64,000 nucleotides of DNA from Diprion similis (taxonomy: Eukaryota; Arthropoda; Insecta; Hymenoptera; Diprionidae). The notes below the pieces were generated by a model. It ran no database searches, had not been told where the DNA came from, and saw nothing but the letters and a program-made list of their open reading frames with translations. Numbering within the stretch: the first letter of the stretch is position 1; every line of letters starts with the position of its first letter. The stretch is from the NCBI RefSeq assembly GCF_021155765.1, contig NC_060107.1, forward strand, positions 16,850,501-16,914,500, in the 5' to 3' direction. Positions 33,530 through 44,809 of the stretch are shown one piece after another. The position numbers and the translations under genes are program-made.

Positions 33530-33617
33530 AATTTAAAAAAAGTGATTTTTTCCCTGATGTTTCGTTATGTTCACGTTACTAACTTCAGCCTCATTATAAA
33601 ATAGTATCTAATCTATA

Positions 33618-34382
33618 TTGCAGCAATTTTTTGGGATTATCCGGCAAGCAGGAGCTGCCAATGACCACCCTACGCTTTCCTCATTTTTGCAACTTTATAA
33701 ATTGATATCAATATATCAACTGTTGAAACCCCCGAAATTTGGAAATTGTACAGTTCAAGAAGATACGCACAAGCCTTTAGTTTCATTGGCAGATTACCCA
33801 ATGATTTTCAAAAAGGATACTACACACATTTCAAAACATTTGCAAGAATTAAAGACAAAGTTAGACTCCATTATCCAAACAACAGAATGGGAATGCGAAG
33901 ATGTTGTCAGGTTTGACCATGATTATGCGTCGGCTTCGGTTGTCAATTGCATAATATATTATGTAACTGGATTTTTGTGTCGCAAATTAAGAAAACAAAA
34001 TAAGTGTCAAGTACGTCAGAAAGCTTTTCAGTCTGTTAAAGAAAATGATACTCTCAGCGAAGCAGAATTAATTAATATGAAAACCCGAGGTGGTTTAATT
34101 CATAGCAATATTTTTCTGTTTTCTCTTTTATCAGCGATCGAGAAATACTTTTGTAAGCACATAGAATCTGAAAATCGATCTGTATATGAATCGACTGTTT
34201 CTGACATGATACAGAATTATAGCTTTTCATTTCCTTGCGAACAACACAAGGATGAAATTGTGTCATATATCATGCACTATTATATAACGATGAGGATGCG
34301 ACAATGGGCAAAAATTCATACACGGGACATTTTAAAGCAGAGCCGTGAAAAGAGAAAATTATCAAGGTTGATGAGTGCGTAG
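33618..34382 (+). pseudogene. P-element transposase C-terminal fragment
   Basis: An open frame follows an acceptor-like TATTGCAG. It contains FFGIIRQAGAANDHPTLSSF (the conserved end of P/THAP9-type transposases), a helical stretch (LQELKTKLDSIIQ), the block ASVVNCIIYYVTGFLCRKL, then TRGGLIHSNIFLFSLLSAIE, and a basic end. About 250 residues are intact with no stop. The GTP-binding and main catalytic portions that should precede it are not present. Confidence 0.75.
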
Positions 34383-35934: not shown

Positions 35935-38900
35935 ATGTCGGACTTCGTGGAAGGTTGGACTTTAGGACACACTTTGGGGGAGGGGGCTTACGGCGAGTGA
36001 GTATTCATCATTATTTTCCCTCGTTAATCACTGCTTAGGCTTTTATTATCACGCTGTTACATCCCGCCTCCTTCATCCGTTTTAAATCATATCGCATTTA
36101 GCATTTGGAAGACATCTCACATATTTTAAGGACGAATGGACATTATTGGAATCGAAATCGAGACGGGAGAAAAAAACCACTCTAAACATCTCTAGTGTTA
36201 TTTGTGCCAATGATGGTAAACAGGTATCAAACATCATCCATACGACGTGATAAATATGATTCTGAGTAAATACAAATGCCACAAGCCAAGATATATCAAC
36301 GATTTGAGGAAAATTTTTATTATTATCACGTTCAGTGATACTCTGATCTTTTTCTGAAACTGAGATCAGTTGAATTCGATCCAAATTGCTTAAAGTCAAA
36401 ATAATGGAAACTACTATGGAGATCTACTGAAAATCACCATGAAATCACTCAAAATTGTTTGAAATCATTTAAAATCATCAGCTCTATATTACTTGAAATC
36501 CTTAAAAACCATACAAAATGTTCTTGAAATTGCTTTGAAGTCATCCAATTCACACCCAGATCTCCGCAATGAATACTCACTTGAATGTATTGAATTATGA
36601 TCTTTCGCAAAGAGATGCAAGATTTTATTTTCCATCTTTTTCACTTCAACCTTAGCTTCTGCACATATTCATTGTATCTTATCATTACTGTAAGTTTTCT
36701 TATAGACAATTGGTGAGTTTGTAACGACGTAACATTCTTTATAATTATTAATAAATTATGCGTAAATTATGATCGCAAACTTCTTAGCAAGGGTAGAGTA
36801 TAGTGAATATGTGCATAATCTGAGGTAAAAAAAAAAAATAAAAAAAAAAAATTAGAAATAGAAAAAAAATTTATTGGAAGGGATATTTCCAAGAAAAAAA
36901 TCATCTGTCTCCCTTGAAATCCTTCAAGTTTTGAATAAAACATTTTTCTTGCATCTCTTCTCAAGAATTCATTTTATTTACATGTAATACTTACACAAAA
37001 CTAAATCCAAAAGCATTATATGTAAAACGAAGGAATTAACTACGTATTCTTGCCGAAACATGGAGTGGAGGAAAAATGTAAAGGGATTTCAGACAGAAGG
37101 TTCACAACATCAAAAATATTTGCAAACCTGAAAGCTTATTTTAGAAATCCAAAATTTAGAATGCTCAGGTATAAAGAAGTGAAATGTAGACAGGTAACTT
37201 ACATACAAAACCAAAATATCGGATTGTTATAATTTTGAGGATTCTACCTATGTTTTGGCTTCTTATATTCGTCTTCCAAAACCAATTTTGACGGTTCAAT
37301 ATTTCAGCTTTCTGTACTTTAACCTTTCAACATTTTGACTCTTCTGTAATTCCACTTTCTACCTCTTCAAATTCTGTGACACACTTTTGGCATATTTGAA
37401 AATTTGATATTGTGACGTCTATTCTATGAGCTTTTTCATTTTTGACCCCCCCCCCCCCCCCCCCCCATAGTCATAAAATTACTTGAAAATAAAATGCAAT
37501 GGATGGAATGAAAAATTATTTAAAAAATGAAAGATGTGAAATTGCATGAAAACTCATCACATCCTGTTGAAACACATTTTTGATACGTAAACATATCTGA
37601 AATTCCTTCCCTACAGGCCAAAATAGAAATCACTGTATTCATTATGAAATCATTTTGAAATCAACATGAAACGCCATGAATTATAAGGTTCAAGTTCGTA
37701 ATGTTATCTTAAAGATGCGTGTTTAGGCAAAGTCGTAACTTCACACATCAGGATTGTTTGAAATTTAATAGACCACAATAAACAAAACACATCCATATTT
37801 TGAAAAGCCAGCTCATTGAAAGTCATTCTAAAATTGAACAATAATGAAGTTTTTCCTGATGTTTCGTTACAATAATGTTACTAAATTCAACTCCGTCATG
37901 AATTCATGTGAAATCGATGTGAAATCAATTCAAAATGGAAGATTTCTGAAATGTTTTTTTTTTATATAATTCTTGGCAATCATGTTAACAAGCAAAATGA
38001 GCACAAAACATCAGAATTAAATAAAAAACACTGGAGTTTAATCATTTGAACATTTAATTATAAAAACCTTTTCTCAAATTGTCGATATATGGAATTGTGT
38101 GAACCAAAATCCATCAGATTCATTTCTATTACATAGTACAGATGTTGTTTAATTTGTGTTTACCATAATTTGCAAATTTTTTTAAACAGGTCTTCCTCTC
38201 CTCACTTTCTATTTATATGGTGCATATTGCTATCGATTTACATTACTTATTTTATCCGTCACAGTCTCAATTTTGTATTACACATCATGTGACAAATATA
38301 AATTTCTGGTTAAATTGCATCTTTCAACATTTTTCTCCGAGTCATTGGGAATTACAAAGTGCAGAGTCCAAATGGACTTGAATAAACGTTTCATGATATT
38401 TTTTCTCGCCTTCATTTTAATCAAGATATATAATATTGCTTCAAATTTTCTATGCAATTCAATTGTATCGTTCTAAAGATTTGGTCAACTCAAGGCTCTG
38501 TCCTTTGGGCTCAATTATTTGTTGGTATAGATTTGATTAGATTTCATTTGATTAGAATATATTCTTCCTTCCAAATCATCGGTTCCCTTCGGAATATCTG
38601 AGAAATTATTCTCCATATGCCTGGATCATGAAATATGCTGATTCATTTACTTTAGAGTCTGCATTATGAATATTAAGACTGCCGTATCAACGTCATAATA
38701 AAAACTTGACAATTATTTCCAGTTTGTTCTTGAGTTTGTTTTCTTTTTCTCTTGAAACTGCCTCAAAACATAAACACATATATTACAATTTTTCTATGAA
38801 ACTTAGAACAAGTTGAGAAATTTTCCTGGTAACATCTAAATTTCAAAACGTATTTAGCTAAGAAACAAAGCCTCGCACTTATTTTATTCTCGAAAGAGTG

Positions 38901-41900
38901 AAAAGGACTAAATTTCAATTGCGCGATGATGTTATTTTCTTTACAGGAAGTTTTATACGGTAATGAATCTCAATCCAGTTAATAACCAAGAGCTAAATGA
39001 CACCAGTGAGAAAGTACTTCATACAATGAACTATGTCGTCTTGAAAACATTCTTTGTCTTCAAAATGAAAGAAAACTTATTCCCAATGCAAATTCAAACG
39101 ACGTTCAATTACATTTACATCCAAATGTGTAGAACAAGATTCAAGAACCCACTTCGGTTCATTGTGTGTTTAACATACCACGTAACTCGATCTTTTTTCA
39201 CTAAACAATTCTGCAGATTATTAAAATTGTTTTGTACGGTATTGCGAAGGTTTTTCCTAATGCCATCTGGAAAATATTCCGTGTTCAAAGTTTTTTTTTT
39301 TCCAATCTTTCTAGGGTAAAATTGGTGATCAACAGAGCATCGGGAGAAGCTGTAGCGATGAAAATGATCGACTTAGCAAAGCACCCAGATGCTCGACAGA
39401 ATGTTCGCAAGGAAACTACCATCCATCGAATGCTATCAAATCCCCATATTATTCATTATTTTGGACAACGTAGCGAACCCGCCATGGAATATATATTCCT
39501 AGAATACGCAGCTGGAGGAGAACTATTTGACCGCATCGGTAACACATTATATCTGTTATTTACATGCAAAACTTTTCAAATTGCTTTTTATAGCTCGTTT
39601 ACTGTAAAAAGTGAACAATTGTATTTCTATTTATAAAGTCGGTGATTGTTGGTCAGAAAAGAACTTGCAAAATTGTAAGAAAATTTAGCAAAATATCATT
39701 AAACTTCGGTAAATACATTTGTGCGAGTGAAAAATTAGTATAATACATTTTTGAAATTACGGAATATCATTTTTCAACACTCAATTAGCAGAGGATTTTG
39801 CCTTTTTGAATTCTAGTTATGAAATATACAAAGAAAACATACATTAGATAAAACTAATGAAAAAAAGTTTTTTTTAAACTCTATGACAATGGATTTAAGA
39901 AAATATAAGGTTAAACTTTGTAACTTCTTAACATCACAAAACATTGGAACAAAACATCCTTCTTTCGCTATTTCATAGTGACATTAATGTCGTTAAGTTT
40001 TTAAAATATGAGTATCTATTGCTTTATTATGGTTTGCTGTATTTTTCACACGTGTCAGAGTAGCGGCAGATCGAAAAACCAGGAATAGTCGGGGAATTAT
40101 ATTGTTCCACTGGAAAAAATGTACTTTTTTTTAGAAACACCAACTGTGCTTCACAAAAATTGAGCCAAACTTGCGGTTGGAAATAGTATTGTTTAGTTTT
40201 TATATCTCCCCCTGATGTACAATTTAATGTGTCGTTAGCTGTAAAAGTCGATCAATATTTTTCCAAATTTGGTGGCAAAACGTGAGGGAATATTGAAATT
40301 TCTGCTGGAAACAGTCGGGTAAATTTATTTTAACAAATTTTTGGCTACCCTGTGTGTTTACATTTCTAAAATTGCGAAATACCGATATTTTTCGAAACAT
40401 TCATCATTATAATAACATTACTAACTTCAGTCTTATGTTTATTCATTAGGAGGGGGGATTACTATTTTGCAAGTTTGTAGTGGCTTCGATGTAATTGAGT
40501 TTTCAAAATATGAATACGCGTTGCCTTATTATGATTTACTAAATTTCAGACATTCCTGCAATTGTGAAATAACGATTTTGCAAAACTTTAATCATTACAA
40601 TAACGTAGAAAGGGGGGAGTGGCCCCCGCGCGGATTGATCTGAAATTTTGGCGAGAAGTTACCTCTGACGTGTAATGAGTTCACCCCAAATTTCAACCTT
40701 GTAGCTACACTGGAATGGGAAATAAAAATACAAGTAGCCGTTTCAGATGATCCAGCTTTTTTCCGGCTTTAAGGGACTGATTTTCTTGAAAAAAATATAT
40801 GTCATTTTAGATCAATCCGCGCGAGGGTCGCTCCCACGTTCTCACCCGGCTACGGCCTTTAGCTTTATGTTTCAGTCTCGTTATTTTCACATTAATTTTC
40901 TGTGTATACTTTTAATTTTGTTGATACAGAACCGGACATAGGAATGCCAATGTGGGAAGCTCAGAAGTACTTTAAACAATTGATATCTGCAGTTGAATAC
41001 CTGCACAGCAGAGGAGTGGCGCACAGAGACCTGAAACCAGAGAACCTGCTTCTCGATGATAATGACAATCTGAAAGTAACAGATTTTGGTATGGCAACGG
41101 TATATAGATTGAATGGGAAAGAACGCTGCTTGGACAAGAGATGCGGAACTTTGCCTTACGTCGCTCCTGAAGTACTAGATCGGCCGTATCATGCAGAACC
41201 GGCGGATATCTGGTCTTGCGGAATTATCCTTGTTGCGATGTTAGCCGGAGGTAAATTTACGAATTATGAAAAATGCAACTAATAGTTTCGGGAGGAAAAT
41301 GTTTTTCGAACTACACCCTCACCGTTTCTCTCTATTATCGTATATATTTCTAATGTTTGACTTACATTCCTTAGTTTCTAAATGGTCCGTATATGAAATA
41401 TAGAACTGCCATGGGATCAGCCCTTGGCAGAGTGTCCTGAATATATAGCGTGGAAGGAGGGAAAACTTACGCTTACGCCTTGGAGTAAACTGGACAATAC
41501 TTCACTTTCCCTAGCCAAAAAAGTTCTCCGTCATTTACCGTCGACAAGGTTTACTTTGAAACAAATCAAGGAACATCATTGGATGCTCGCTAAACACCAC
41601 GAAGGTGAGAAAGACTGTAATTCATTAATTGTCAAAGTTATAAAAGTTTATTCATAAGTGATTTGAATACAATATTACTCGTATGACTTTACATTGACTG
41701 GATTTGAAGAAAGCGGCAGAAAAACTAATCCGGTGTTTCCTCAGTCAGGTACTGAGTGACTCTGAGTAAATATTCGATACTCAAAGCAACTCGGTACCCA
41801 ACTATGTGAACACTTTATACTTCGGCCTATAGAGCTGCTCGTTGTTAATCGTTGACTCTTGTGCACAAAGTAAGTAGCTCACAATGCCTGGAATTAAGTA

Positions 41901-43804
41901 TTCGTTTAATTTAGACTTGTTACTACATATTTATAAACATTGTTAAATAACTGAAGACACCTGTGTAATGACTCTGACTGATGTATTTTTTGCTCGCATC
42001 AATCGTCGTTTGTTTTTTCAGTGAGTAGTGATACCATGAAGGAAGATTTCAAATAGCTATTGCCTTTTCTTTGGTGATACAGCTGTATGATTTCAATTAA
42101 AGATCATAAAGCTAGATTACCAAAGCAAAGAACATGGCTTACTCAACCCATTCCTTGGATTATCCGCCATCACGTTGATCTGCACAATTCAGAAAAAGAA
42201 AATCGAATTTCTGTTGTCCTGTCTTTGGTTATCTAGCTGTATGACTTTTCTACTTCATAAAGCTAGAATACCGAAGTCAGGACGATAGCTGATATCGTCT
42301 AATTGTCCTCCTCTCAAGTCCGAAGCTAAACATTCTGACTTATTCGCTAAATTATTTACACAGAGATCAAATTACCATTATTTTTATTGTTAATAAATTG
42401 GAGATACTTTGAGAATGACACAATTCAAAACAATTTACATATCGATTGTAGATGGGAAATCAGTGGGAAGTGACGTGGTGGATGGAAATATACCAAAGCG
42501 ACTGTGTTCTGCGAATGGCGACGACGTGTCCAGATTCTGTTTGTCGCAACCTGAGATGCACGGTATTGAAATAAACAATACAGAGCGTATGAAGTTTGAA
42601 CAAAGGCCAGGATTTTCTTTCTCCCAGCCTACAGATGTAGAGGATTTATTACTATGCACCCCGTTACAAGCCACTCAACATACGCAGAGCACGAGTCAGG
42701 TAAGAAAGTCCACAAAATGGTTCATTTTATAGTTGTAGAAAAGCAATAATTTGCGAAAACCATCCTCCAAAGTGGCCATTAAATCTCTATCTCGAAATTC
42801 CCTGACTTTTCCAGGTTTTCTACACAAAAATCTTATAGTTTAACGAGGCCAATTCGGATCGGTTATAGCTAATTGAAAAAAATGTGTAGTTTCGAAATGA
42901 TTTTTTTTTTTTTCTTTTTTATGAAAGTACTGTCACTTGGGACACACTGTCCCATCCAGTCGACGCGTACGATCGTTTGTAAGGCAATATATAGGAATAT
43001 TCAAAGTTTGAAGAGAACCTTTCGGCGATGGTAAAAGAAATTTGCATTTGATATAATTTATCTAAAGCTTAAAAAAAATTGTGAGACGTATTTGAATGAA
43101 AAAAAACATAGTAAACGGTTTCCTGGCTTCCCGCAAAAACTCCTGACATTTCCCTGATTTTTCCAAAATTTCATGACATTTCCAGATTTTCTAGAATTCT
43201 CTGACCAGTGGCCACCCTGATATTCTTTGAACTAATTGAAATTTGTTTCTTTTTTTGACAGAACACCTTCCAAAAATTAGCACGCCGCATGACTAGATTT
43301 TTCGTAAAAATGGACGGTGACAGCTTTGCAAAGAAGTTGTTATCTGTTTTGGAAAAGGAAGGATACACATGTCGCGTCAGCGAAGTTGGTGTTGTAAGTT
43401 ATTTCACTACTCTAAACAAACAAATTTTTTGGCAACTTCAGTTAAGTTTGAGATAGAACTCGATAGTTACTCTGATCATAGATTACCTACAAATTCTAAA
43501 AAATATCATTGTAAGAACTTTTTGTCACGAGAACAATTGAAATTTTGCTAATAATATCACATTCTTCTTTCAGATCACAGTTACAACTGTTGATAGACGG
43601 AAAATGCCTCTTGTTTTCAAAGCAAACATCGTTGATATGGATGGGAAAACACTCGTAGATTTTAGATTGTCCAAAGGATGCGGTATCGAGTTCAAGCGAA
43701 GATTTGTCAAGATCAAATCTGATCTTAGAGACTTTGTTTCCAAAAGTACTGTTTCATGGCCTATTGAGATTGCCACTCACGACAATGTGTCACAATCATG
43801 CTAG
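35935..43804 (+). CDS. grp: Checkpoint kinase Chk1 (grapes homologue)
   Basis: Seven exons join in phase: 35935-35996, 39315-39538, 40930-41250, 41404-41604, 42452-42699, 43262-43393 and 43574-43804, giving 472 residues, the usual Chk1 length. Kinase landmarks: glycine loop LGEGAYGEV (14-22), catalytic Lys in AVAMK (37), HRD (127-129), DFG (147-149) and [10 protein letters not shown] in the activation segment. Exon 5 encodes a linker with SQ/TQ sites at about 301, 327, 344, 347 and 351, where ATR-type kinases phosphorylate Chk1. The C-terminal exons carry the KA1-like regulatory domain ([34 protein letters not shown]). Chk1 stops the cell cycle at damaged or unreplicated DNA. Intron 1 (3.3 kb) holds repeats, intron 2 a small MITE, and intron 4 a microRNA cluster. 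Confidence 0.97.
35997..39314. other. Chk1 intron 1
   Basis: A 3.3-kb AT-rich intron. It includes an A-rich tract at 36829-36860, a poly-C run at 37446-37466, a zone (36420-36560) with many degenerate TGAAATCA-type words, and a copy of an old dispersed repeat at about 37980-38170 (see findings). No exon or RNA gene was recognised. Confidence 0.6.
37446..37466. repeat. Poly-C tract
   Basis: About 21 consecutive C in Chk1 intron 1. Length in the assembly may be unreliable. Confidence 0.95.
40612..40843. mobile_element. Small MITE in Chk1 intron 2
   Basis: The ends are inverted repeats of about 27 bp. The left arm has GTGGCCCCCGCGCGGATTGA, and the right arm has the complement of GCGACCCTCGCGCGGATTGA; both inner ends read TCT/AGA. 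The GC-rich ends stand out in an AT-rich intron. The target duplication is not clear, so the limits are good to a few bases. No coding sequence. Confidence 0.75.
41736..41807 (+). ncRNA. mir-306: mir-306 precursor
   Basis: Hairpin in Chk1 intron 4. The 5' arm (41745-41766) starts with TCAGGTACTGAGTGACTC, the insect miR-306-5p sequence (seed CAGGTAC). The opposite arm (about 41780-41800) has TACTC and ACTCGGTACC, which pair with GAGTA and GGTACTGAGT. In Drosophila this microRNA lies with miR-9c, miR-79 and miR-9b in an intron of grapes, the same host gene. Confidence 0.9.
42060..42135 (+). ncRNA. mir-79: mir-79/mir-9b-type precursor
   Basis: Hairpin in Chk1 intron 4. The 3' arm at 42106-42127 reads ATAAAGCTAGATTACCAAAG, the miR-79 sequence (seed TAAAGCT). 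The 5' arm at 42068-42090 reads TCTTTGGTGATACAGCTGTA, of miR-9 family type. The arms pair over nearly their full length around a loop of about 15 bases. Both arms could give mature products. Confidence 0.93.
42213..42287 (+). ncRNA. mir-9: mir-9 precursor (canonical miR-9a-type 5p arm)
   Basis: Third hairpin of the cluster. The 5' arm at 42222-42244 reads TCTTTGGTTATCTAGCTGTA and ends TGA, the canonical animal miR-9 sequence (seed CTTTGGT). The 3' arm at about 42257-42277 reads ATAAAGCTAGAATACCGAAG. Outer stem bases TCCTG/CAGGA also pair. miR-9 acts in insects in sensory organ and wing development. Confidence 0.95.
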
Positions 43805-44809
43805 ATTGACAAACTAATTTTAAATCACCAACATTCAATAATGTACATTCTATTTTTCTACTGAATTTGAACTTTTATATTATACTCTCGATTATTTGGG
43901 ACTGGAATTCAACTAGGGTTTGTAAAATTTAAAATCTACACAACAGCTTTATGGCATAATGAATTAAAGTTGATTTCTGACTAGGTTTATCGAATGAAAG
44001 ACAAAACAATCGTTACTGTTTTTATACACTTAAACATTTAACAATAGATGTAAAAAATTTATATTGAACACTTTGATGAATATACTGTTGAACGATGACA
44101 CTTGATTGTGAATTTACCTTTTACTTGTTACTTCAATATATTATTATAAATTCAATACTTTGCTCCTTGACACTGAATTTCATAGTAAGAGCAAAATAGA
44201 TCATACATATATTGTATCATAAAATGTATACCTCTCATTAATTTGTGAAATATATTTACTTGTAATGGGAAAATTTGTACTATTTCGACAATCGTTTACC
44301 TCCGGAAGGTCGAACGAGGATTTCACCACCAAATATTACGCTAGATTTGATTACTCTAAGTAAGTCCGTTTAAAGACGAGTGGGATTTAAAATTGTCAAC
44401 AGATCAATTTCTTTTATTACTTTATTTACACATTTCACTTCACTGACGACGATACAATCATGGCTTATACTTGAATGGGAAATTTTTGTTGAAAACTTGG
44501 ACGATACCACGCAATTAAACTTCATCGGGTAAATAGTTCACGAATTTAATCTATATTCTTAAGATAGCTATTTCAGATTGGTGACAGCAGTGTTCATTTA
44601 GACTATTAGTTTCTATACTGTAAAGGTATCCAGATCTATAGAGTTCACAATCGTACATTAATTGTTGCGAATTACTTAGTCGTATGTATGTTTTAGAAAA
44701 ATATAATTTCGAATTAGTCGCATTATCCCATTGAGAAAGTCTTTTGGACACAGGTGATTAAATCGTTCATAACCACTGATCTGAGATAGCTGAATTCCGA
44801 AGTCTACAA
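43805..44809. other. 3' flanks of convergent Chk1 and NIPP1
   Basis: AT-rich sequence without a gene, taken to be the two 3' UTRs and a short spacer. Confidence 0.5.

Follow-up and report, generated by a model that had tools for sequence, protein, structure and literature searches.

The DNA analyzed here, referred to as the window, is a stretch of 64,000 nucleotides from the hymenopteran insect Diprion similis (contig NC_060107.1, positions 16,850,501 to 16,914,500 of the forward strand). It carries a gene for checkpoint kinase 1 (Chk1) whose fourth intron contains three microRNA precursor hairpins, a mir-306-like hairpin starting at position 41733, a mir-79 hairpin starting at 42059 and a mir-9 hairpin starting at 42213, all on the same (+) strand as Chk1 (Table 1). 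An initial annotation, made by a model from the letters of the window, had placed three hairpins of this order in Chk1 intron 4 at 41736-42287; to within a few bases all three do lie there, and the observation is confirmed. The host gene is intact, in that its spliced frame is open over 473 codons including the stop and all six of its introns have GT-AG ends. The kinase domain matches the Pfam model Pkinase with 225.8 bits, and in a search of PDB the Chk1 chains matched residues 3-263, with a best E of 1.5e-105 (24 distinct sequences listed).

Table 1. Features of the Chk1 locus in the window, with related mir-9 family hairpins found elsewhere in the genome. Published arms are as given in excerpts of the papers.
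Feature	Position	Strand	Details
Chk1 (checkpoint kinase 1) gene	35935..43804	+	seven coding exons with manually set edges
Chk1 coding exons	35935-35996, 39315-39538, 40930-41250, 41404-41604, 42452-42699, 43262-43393, 43574-43804	+	
Chk1 intron 4, cluster host	41605..42451	+	847 bases; ends GTGAGA...TTGTAG; frame kept across
mir-306-like precursor hairpin	41733..41813	+	RF00858 33.7 bits, E 9.1e-4 (64-kb scan); z -5.37
miR-306-5p mature arm	41745..41766	+	22/22 to the 22-mer given for Apis mellifera in the thrips table of PMC6053560
mir-79 precursor hairpin	42059..42135	+	RF00237 63.3 bits, above gathering score; z -5.09
miR-79-3p mature arm	42106..42127	+	22/23 identical to Aedes miR-79
mir-9 precursor hairpin, third cluster member	42213..42286	+	RF00237 70.7 bits, E 8.4e-12; z -8.48
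Canonical miR-9-5p mature arm	42222..42244	+	23/23 to Aedes miR-9a and silkworm miR-9
Star arm (miR-9-3p) of the Chk1 mir-9 hairpin; differs from mir-9a-3p	42257..42278	+	20/24 to the 3p arm of the C14 mir-9a
Isolated canonical mir-9a	G000:C14:4650395-4650471	-	RF00237 68.2 bits
Divergent mir-9 family hairpin stretch	L027:996-1910 = G000:C12, about 12871628-12872542		57.8 bits versus cut-off 58.6; z -6.92

The hairpins were compared with 200 shuffled sequences each, and for none of the three did any shuffle (0/200) fold as well as the native sequence. A scan of the + strand of Chk1, which started where exon 1 ends and reached into exon 7 in 507 overlapping segments of 90 nt, yielded z-scores below -3.5 in eight segments, all of which overlap the three hairpins of intron 4; the comparison with shuffles (60 each) was confined to the 45 segments at or below -18 kcal/mol. 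The gathering scores of the relevant Rfam families are 58.6 bits for RF00237 (mir-9/mir-79) and 52 bits for RF00858 (mir-306), and both the mir-9 (70.7 bits) and mir-79 (63.3 bits) hairpins exceed the first of these. Since the remaining hairpin lies below the RF00858 gathering score, we name it mir-306-like, on the basis of its mature arm, its place and its fold, and do not file it under that family. Its 5p arm agrees with known miR-306 sequences: besides the full match listed in Table 1, it is one base off the miR-306 of Aedes. The mir-276 family also matches this stretch, more weakly (26.1 bits). The 23-mer of the canonical miR-9 arm occurs as two exact copies in the 269-Mb genome (60 contigs), and its reversed control has no match there; the miR-79 and miR-9 arms had no matches in viral contigs, nor did the miR-9 arm in prokaryote contigs. 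The minus strands of the same three hairpins match their own families as well, below cut-off in each case (mir-306, 30.7 bits; mir-79, 57.6 bits; mir-9, 54.4 bits), and eight antisense miR-306 reads have been reported for the silkworm.

In the fly, the gene grp (grapes, Chk1) hosts or overlaps mir-9c/306/79/9b (PMC4593001, PMC4043116; these and the other papers are cited from excerpts). The D. similis locus shares with the D. melanogaster cluster both the host and the order of 306, 79 and a 9-type member; it differs in that no miR-9c was found and in that its last arm is the canonical miR-9 rather than miR-9b (the 9b letters compared being those of Aedes). The cluster of Aedes aegypti, in which miR-306, miR-79 and miR-9b follow each other on one contig and miR-9c is ~27 kb away (PMC2797818), also has the same order and close spacing, but its last member has the 9b arm, and no miR-9c was found within 100 kb of the window in D. 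similis. Without a detectable miR-9c and with a canonical arm on its last member, the cluster described here is not of the dipteran form, in which miR-9c is present and the last member is of the miR-9b type.

The apparent absence of miR-9c was approached at several scales. Within the window, no miR-9c-like arm was found at up to three mismatches, patterns combining seed and arm revealed no miR-9c-like hairpin, and Rfam detected no further mir-9 place on a lax threshold. The initial annotation had reported no miR-9c hairpin before miR-306, and that statement holds for the window and for 200 kb of flank; folding of the + strand of the Chk1 introns likewise revealed no fourth hairpin. A scan for arm patterns over the window and 100 kb on each side (24 sequences, 279046 bases; besides the window and its flanks these included three loci, of which one is inside the window) found the known hairpins, twelve other loose hits and no fourth mir-9 hairpin. 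The loose hits (11 with two arms, three of these in the window, and one with a 3p arm) were judged by eye to be without miR-9 arms, and the three within the window also lacked any mir-9 match in Rfam. In the whole genome, the RF00237 family search identified four places: the two hairpins of the window, one on C14 (68.2 bits) and one on C12 (57.8 bits). This search scored 64 of 25061 first-look candidates, and its controls found something in four of 14 control genomes and nothing above cut-off in any. Neither the family search nor an arm-pattern search at up to three mismatches detected a fly-type miR-9c in the genome. The pattern of the fly miR-9c-5p did lead to two genome places (L028 and L029), neither of which has a mir-9 hairpin or an Rfam match up to E 1, and L029 resembles protein-coding sequence by eye. 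The reversed control of the same pattern gave 105 and 90, so two such hits are within noise.

A Mir-306/Mir-9 cluster is among 13 clusters found in Blattella that most of the seven insects surveyed are reported to share, Tribolium having lost it (Ylla et al., PMC5121899). The likeness of that cluster to the one described here is one of family names, the families being the same. An earlier statement that the cluster is specific to Diptera (PMC1388199, published in 2006) is contradicted both by those results and by the D. similis locus. Together with the hosting of the cluster by grp in the fly, the occurrence of the Mir-306/Mir-9 cluster across insects supports the proposal of the initial annotation that host and order are old. 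Its further claim, that the last member carries a 5p arm of the canonical miR-9 type, is borne out at all 23 positions, and of the explanations it offered for that arm, a canonical miR-9 in the ancestral cluster is the one favored by the published 9b arms. Three substitutions and one gap separate the miR-9b arm of the mosquito from the canonical arm (20/23 identical to the arm in the window), and the miR-9b of the silkworm, which we take to be the orthologue in the cluster by its name and sequence, is one base from canonical miR-9. Because the silkworm arm is so close to the canonical one, the dipteran miR-9b arm looks derived, and the simplest reading would be that the canonical last arm is old and that the dipteran arm arose from it.

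The arm of the fly miR-9c has close matches in other insects, with one mismatch in 21 to miR-9d of the silkworm and two in 21 to an arm listed for thrips under an aphid source name, as compared with three in 21 to canonical miR-9. (Two pairwise counts against the silkworm 9d arm, with three gaps, were disregarded as artefacts of alignment.) Given such miR-9c-like arms elsewhere, the absence of miR-9c in D. similis would more probably reflect a loss or a move than the original state, and a loss in this lineage is likely.

We consider it highly probable that the locus represents a three-member version of the mir-306/mir-79/mir-9 cluster that Chk1 hosts in insects, that its last arm has been kept canonical by purifying selection, that the dipteran miR-9b is derived, and that the fly-type miR-9c, which was not found, has most likely been lost or relocated. 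Several points weigh against this reading. The mir-306-like hairpin, at 33.7 bits, is well short of the RF00858 gathering score of 52. The ancestral state is deduced from few published sequences, with the silkworm miR-9b as a presumed orthologue. A miR-9c under some definition may persist in Hymenoptera, a miR-9c having been reported by name for the bee and a miR-9c-5p, likewise by name only, for the cockroach. Finally, the processing and expression of the three hairpins are predictions. As we see it, the locus is real, conserved and largely ordinary, and the evolutionary point that it makes is a modest one: the host and cluster were already described for the fly and the Mir-306/Mir-9 cluster for other insects, to which D. 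similis adds the canonical last member and the apparent lack of the fourth member of the fly. Among the literature matches listed, which cover few subscription journals and were reached in part by weak searches on names, there was no description of the cluster at Chk1 outside flies; nor, among the matches listed, did any title on insects join miR-306 with Chk1, or any paper give the letters of the miR-9 3p arm of the window.

The alternative that fares best, and that we regard as less likely though still with appreciable weight, is that miR-9c was not lost at all: it might never have been in the cluster in this lineage, it might be represented by the displaced hairpin on C12, or it might have been missed by the assembly or the search. 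The family search does place a fourth mir-9 family hairpin on C12, its 57.8 bits falling marginally short of the 58.6 cut-off, and it scored a small fraction of its first-look candidates; moreover, since the miR-9c of Aedes is ~27 kb from miR-306 on the same contig, the expectation of finding it just before miR-306 is weak to begin with. The C12 hairpin itself, on the other hand, is a poor candidate for a displaced miR-9c. Its 5p arm has changed, but it agrees with canonical miR-9 at 20/23 positions ungapped as against 18/22 with one gap for the fly miR-9c, and it adjoins matches to other families within a stretch of 0.9 kb, namely mir-2944 (47.5 bits versus 56), mir-279 (39.7 versus 56) and mir-3 (36.7 versus 54), all below cut-off. 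The two hits of the miR-9c pattern search described above, neither of them a mir-9 hairpin, add nothing beyond their control. On the other strand of the C12 stretch there is a mir-3478 match above cut-off (67.9 versus 66), and a further 5924 bases outward from the stretch contained no more of these families.

The 3p arm of the C12 hairpin starts like miR-79-3p and also like fly mir-4, which belongs to the fly mir-309 cluster; from these two likenesses it follows that the fly mir-4 may be part of the mir-9 family. A wider scheme can be built on this, in which D. similis would have kept the older state of the Chk1 cluster (306, 79 and canonical miR-9) and lost the fly-type miR-9c, Chk1 would supply a maternal dose of miR-9 through the canonical arm, and the C12 hairpin would correspond to fly mir-4 of the mir-309 cluster, which would make mir-4 a member of the mir-9 family. 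As a whole this scheme is speculative, and we think it doubtful.

In the three-member cluster preferred here, the three microRNAs would be made by way of their host. The Chk1 pre-mRNA would contain the three hairpins in intron 4; by analogy with the general animal pathway, they would be excised by Drosha and processed by Dicer-1 into duplexes of ~22 nt, and Argonaute would then be loaded with miR-306-5p, miR-79-3p and miR-9-5p; the last member would retain its canonical miR-9-5p through purifying selection on that arm. Transcription of the cluster together with Chk1, which the initial annotation had also assumed, is suggested by the shared strand, by the location inside an intron of 847 bases and by the distance of 128 bases from the start of the intron to the mir-306-like hairpin. 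MicroRNAs located in introns may be driven by promoters of their own, and the dependence on Chk1 transcription is inferred; an intronic promoter for the cluster, by which Chk1 and the microRNAs would be mere neighbors and not one transcription unit, is for the above reasons unlikely. It also accords poorly with the fly, in which grp and the cluster alike show a female bias (PMC4043116) and are both maternal or present in the oocyte (PMC4593001). A maternal supply of the microRNAs might exist in D. similis as it does in the fly. With regard to function, fly miR-306 and miR-79 have been connected with tumor suppression (PMC9612915).

The canonical arm of the last member might also have come from a second mir-9 gene by gene conversion or recent duplication, the former of which was among the possibilities raised by the initial annotation. 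The genome does hold such a gene, on C14, whose 3p arm is identical at 23/23 positions to the Tribolium miR-9a-3p (a sequence deduced from the antagomir printed in PMC10094939) and which is most likely the isolated mir-9a of insects. It shares with the Chk1 copy its 5p arm over all 23 bases, but differs from it in contig, loop and 3p arm. The identity between the two is exactly the 23-nt mature arm, with no extra bases to the left or right, an end at both borders that conversion would have to produce by chance. The loops measure 11 and 14 nt, and the 12-nt basal flanks agree at 3/12 and 5/12 positions. An identity limited in this way favors purifying selection over gene conversion, and since mosquito and silkworm are on record with this very 23-mer, no conversion is needed to account for it. 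In its 3p arm, the Chk1 copy resembles Aedes miR-79 (20/22, with one gap) more closely than Tribolium miR-9a-3p (19/23), which fits a tandem relative of mir-79; and because the orthologue of mir-9a with its Tribolium-type 3p arm is accounted for on C14, the Chk1 copy does not represent a relocated mir-9a. We therefore reject the conversion option of the initial annotation, and we hold a transfer of either kind to be very improbable. That the hairpins are non-functional relics, as might be argued from the sub-threshold mir-306 score and from an expression that is predicted, is more improbable still, in view of mature arms that equal or nearly equal published ones (miR-9 23/23, miR-79 22/23, miR-306 22/22) and of folds unequaled by any shuffle.

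The locus provides one more data point for the view that intronic microRNAs can stay with their host gene over the long term even as individual members are altered or disappear. Names, too, call for caution here. The mir-9b of the bee is reported to overlap mir-79 on the opposite strand (PMC2394756) and, being antisense to mir-79, is not the counterpart of the mir-9b in the fly cluster.

Seed matches of the three microRNAs were found once, as a 7-mer, in the Chk1 coding sequence and once in the 1 kb past its stop; since 106 of 500 and 53 of 500 shuffles, respectively, had as many sites, these are not evidence of targeting. The latter site, for the seed shared by miR-79 and miR-9-3p, is at 43945-43951 of the window, 141 bases past the Chk1 stop in what is presumed to be the 3' untranslated region. 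It would allow for a possible feedback on the host, though it is within chance. Upstream of Chk1, at 33612-34382 on the + strand, there is an open stretch of 256 codons which by eye appears to be part of a protein of the transposon type.

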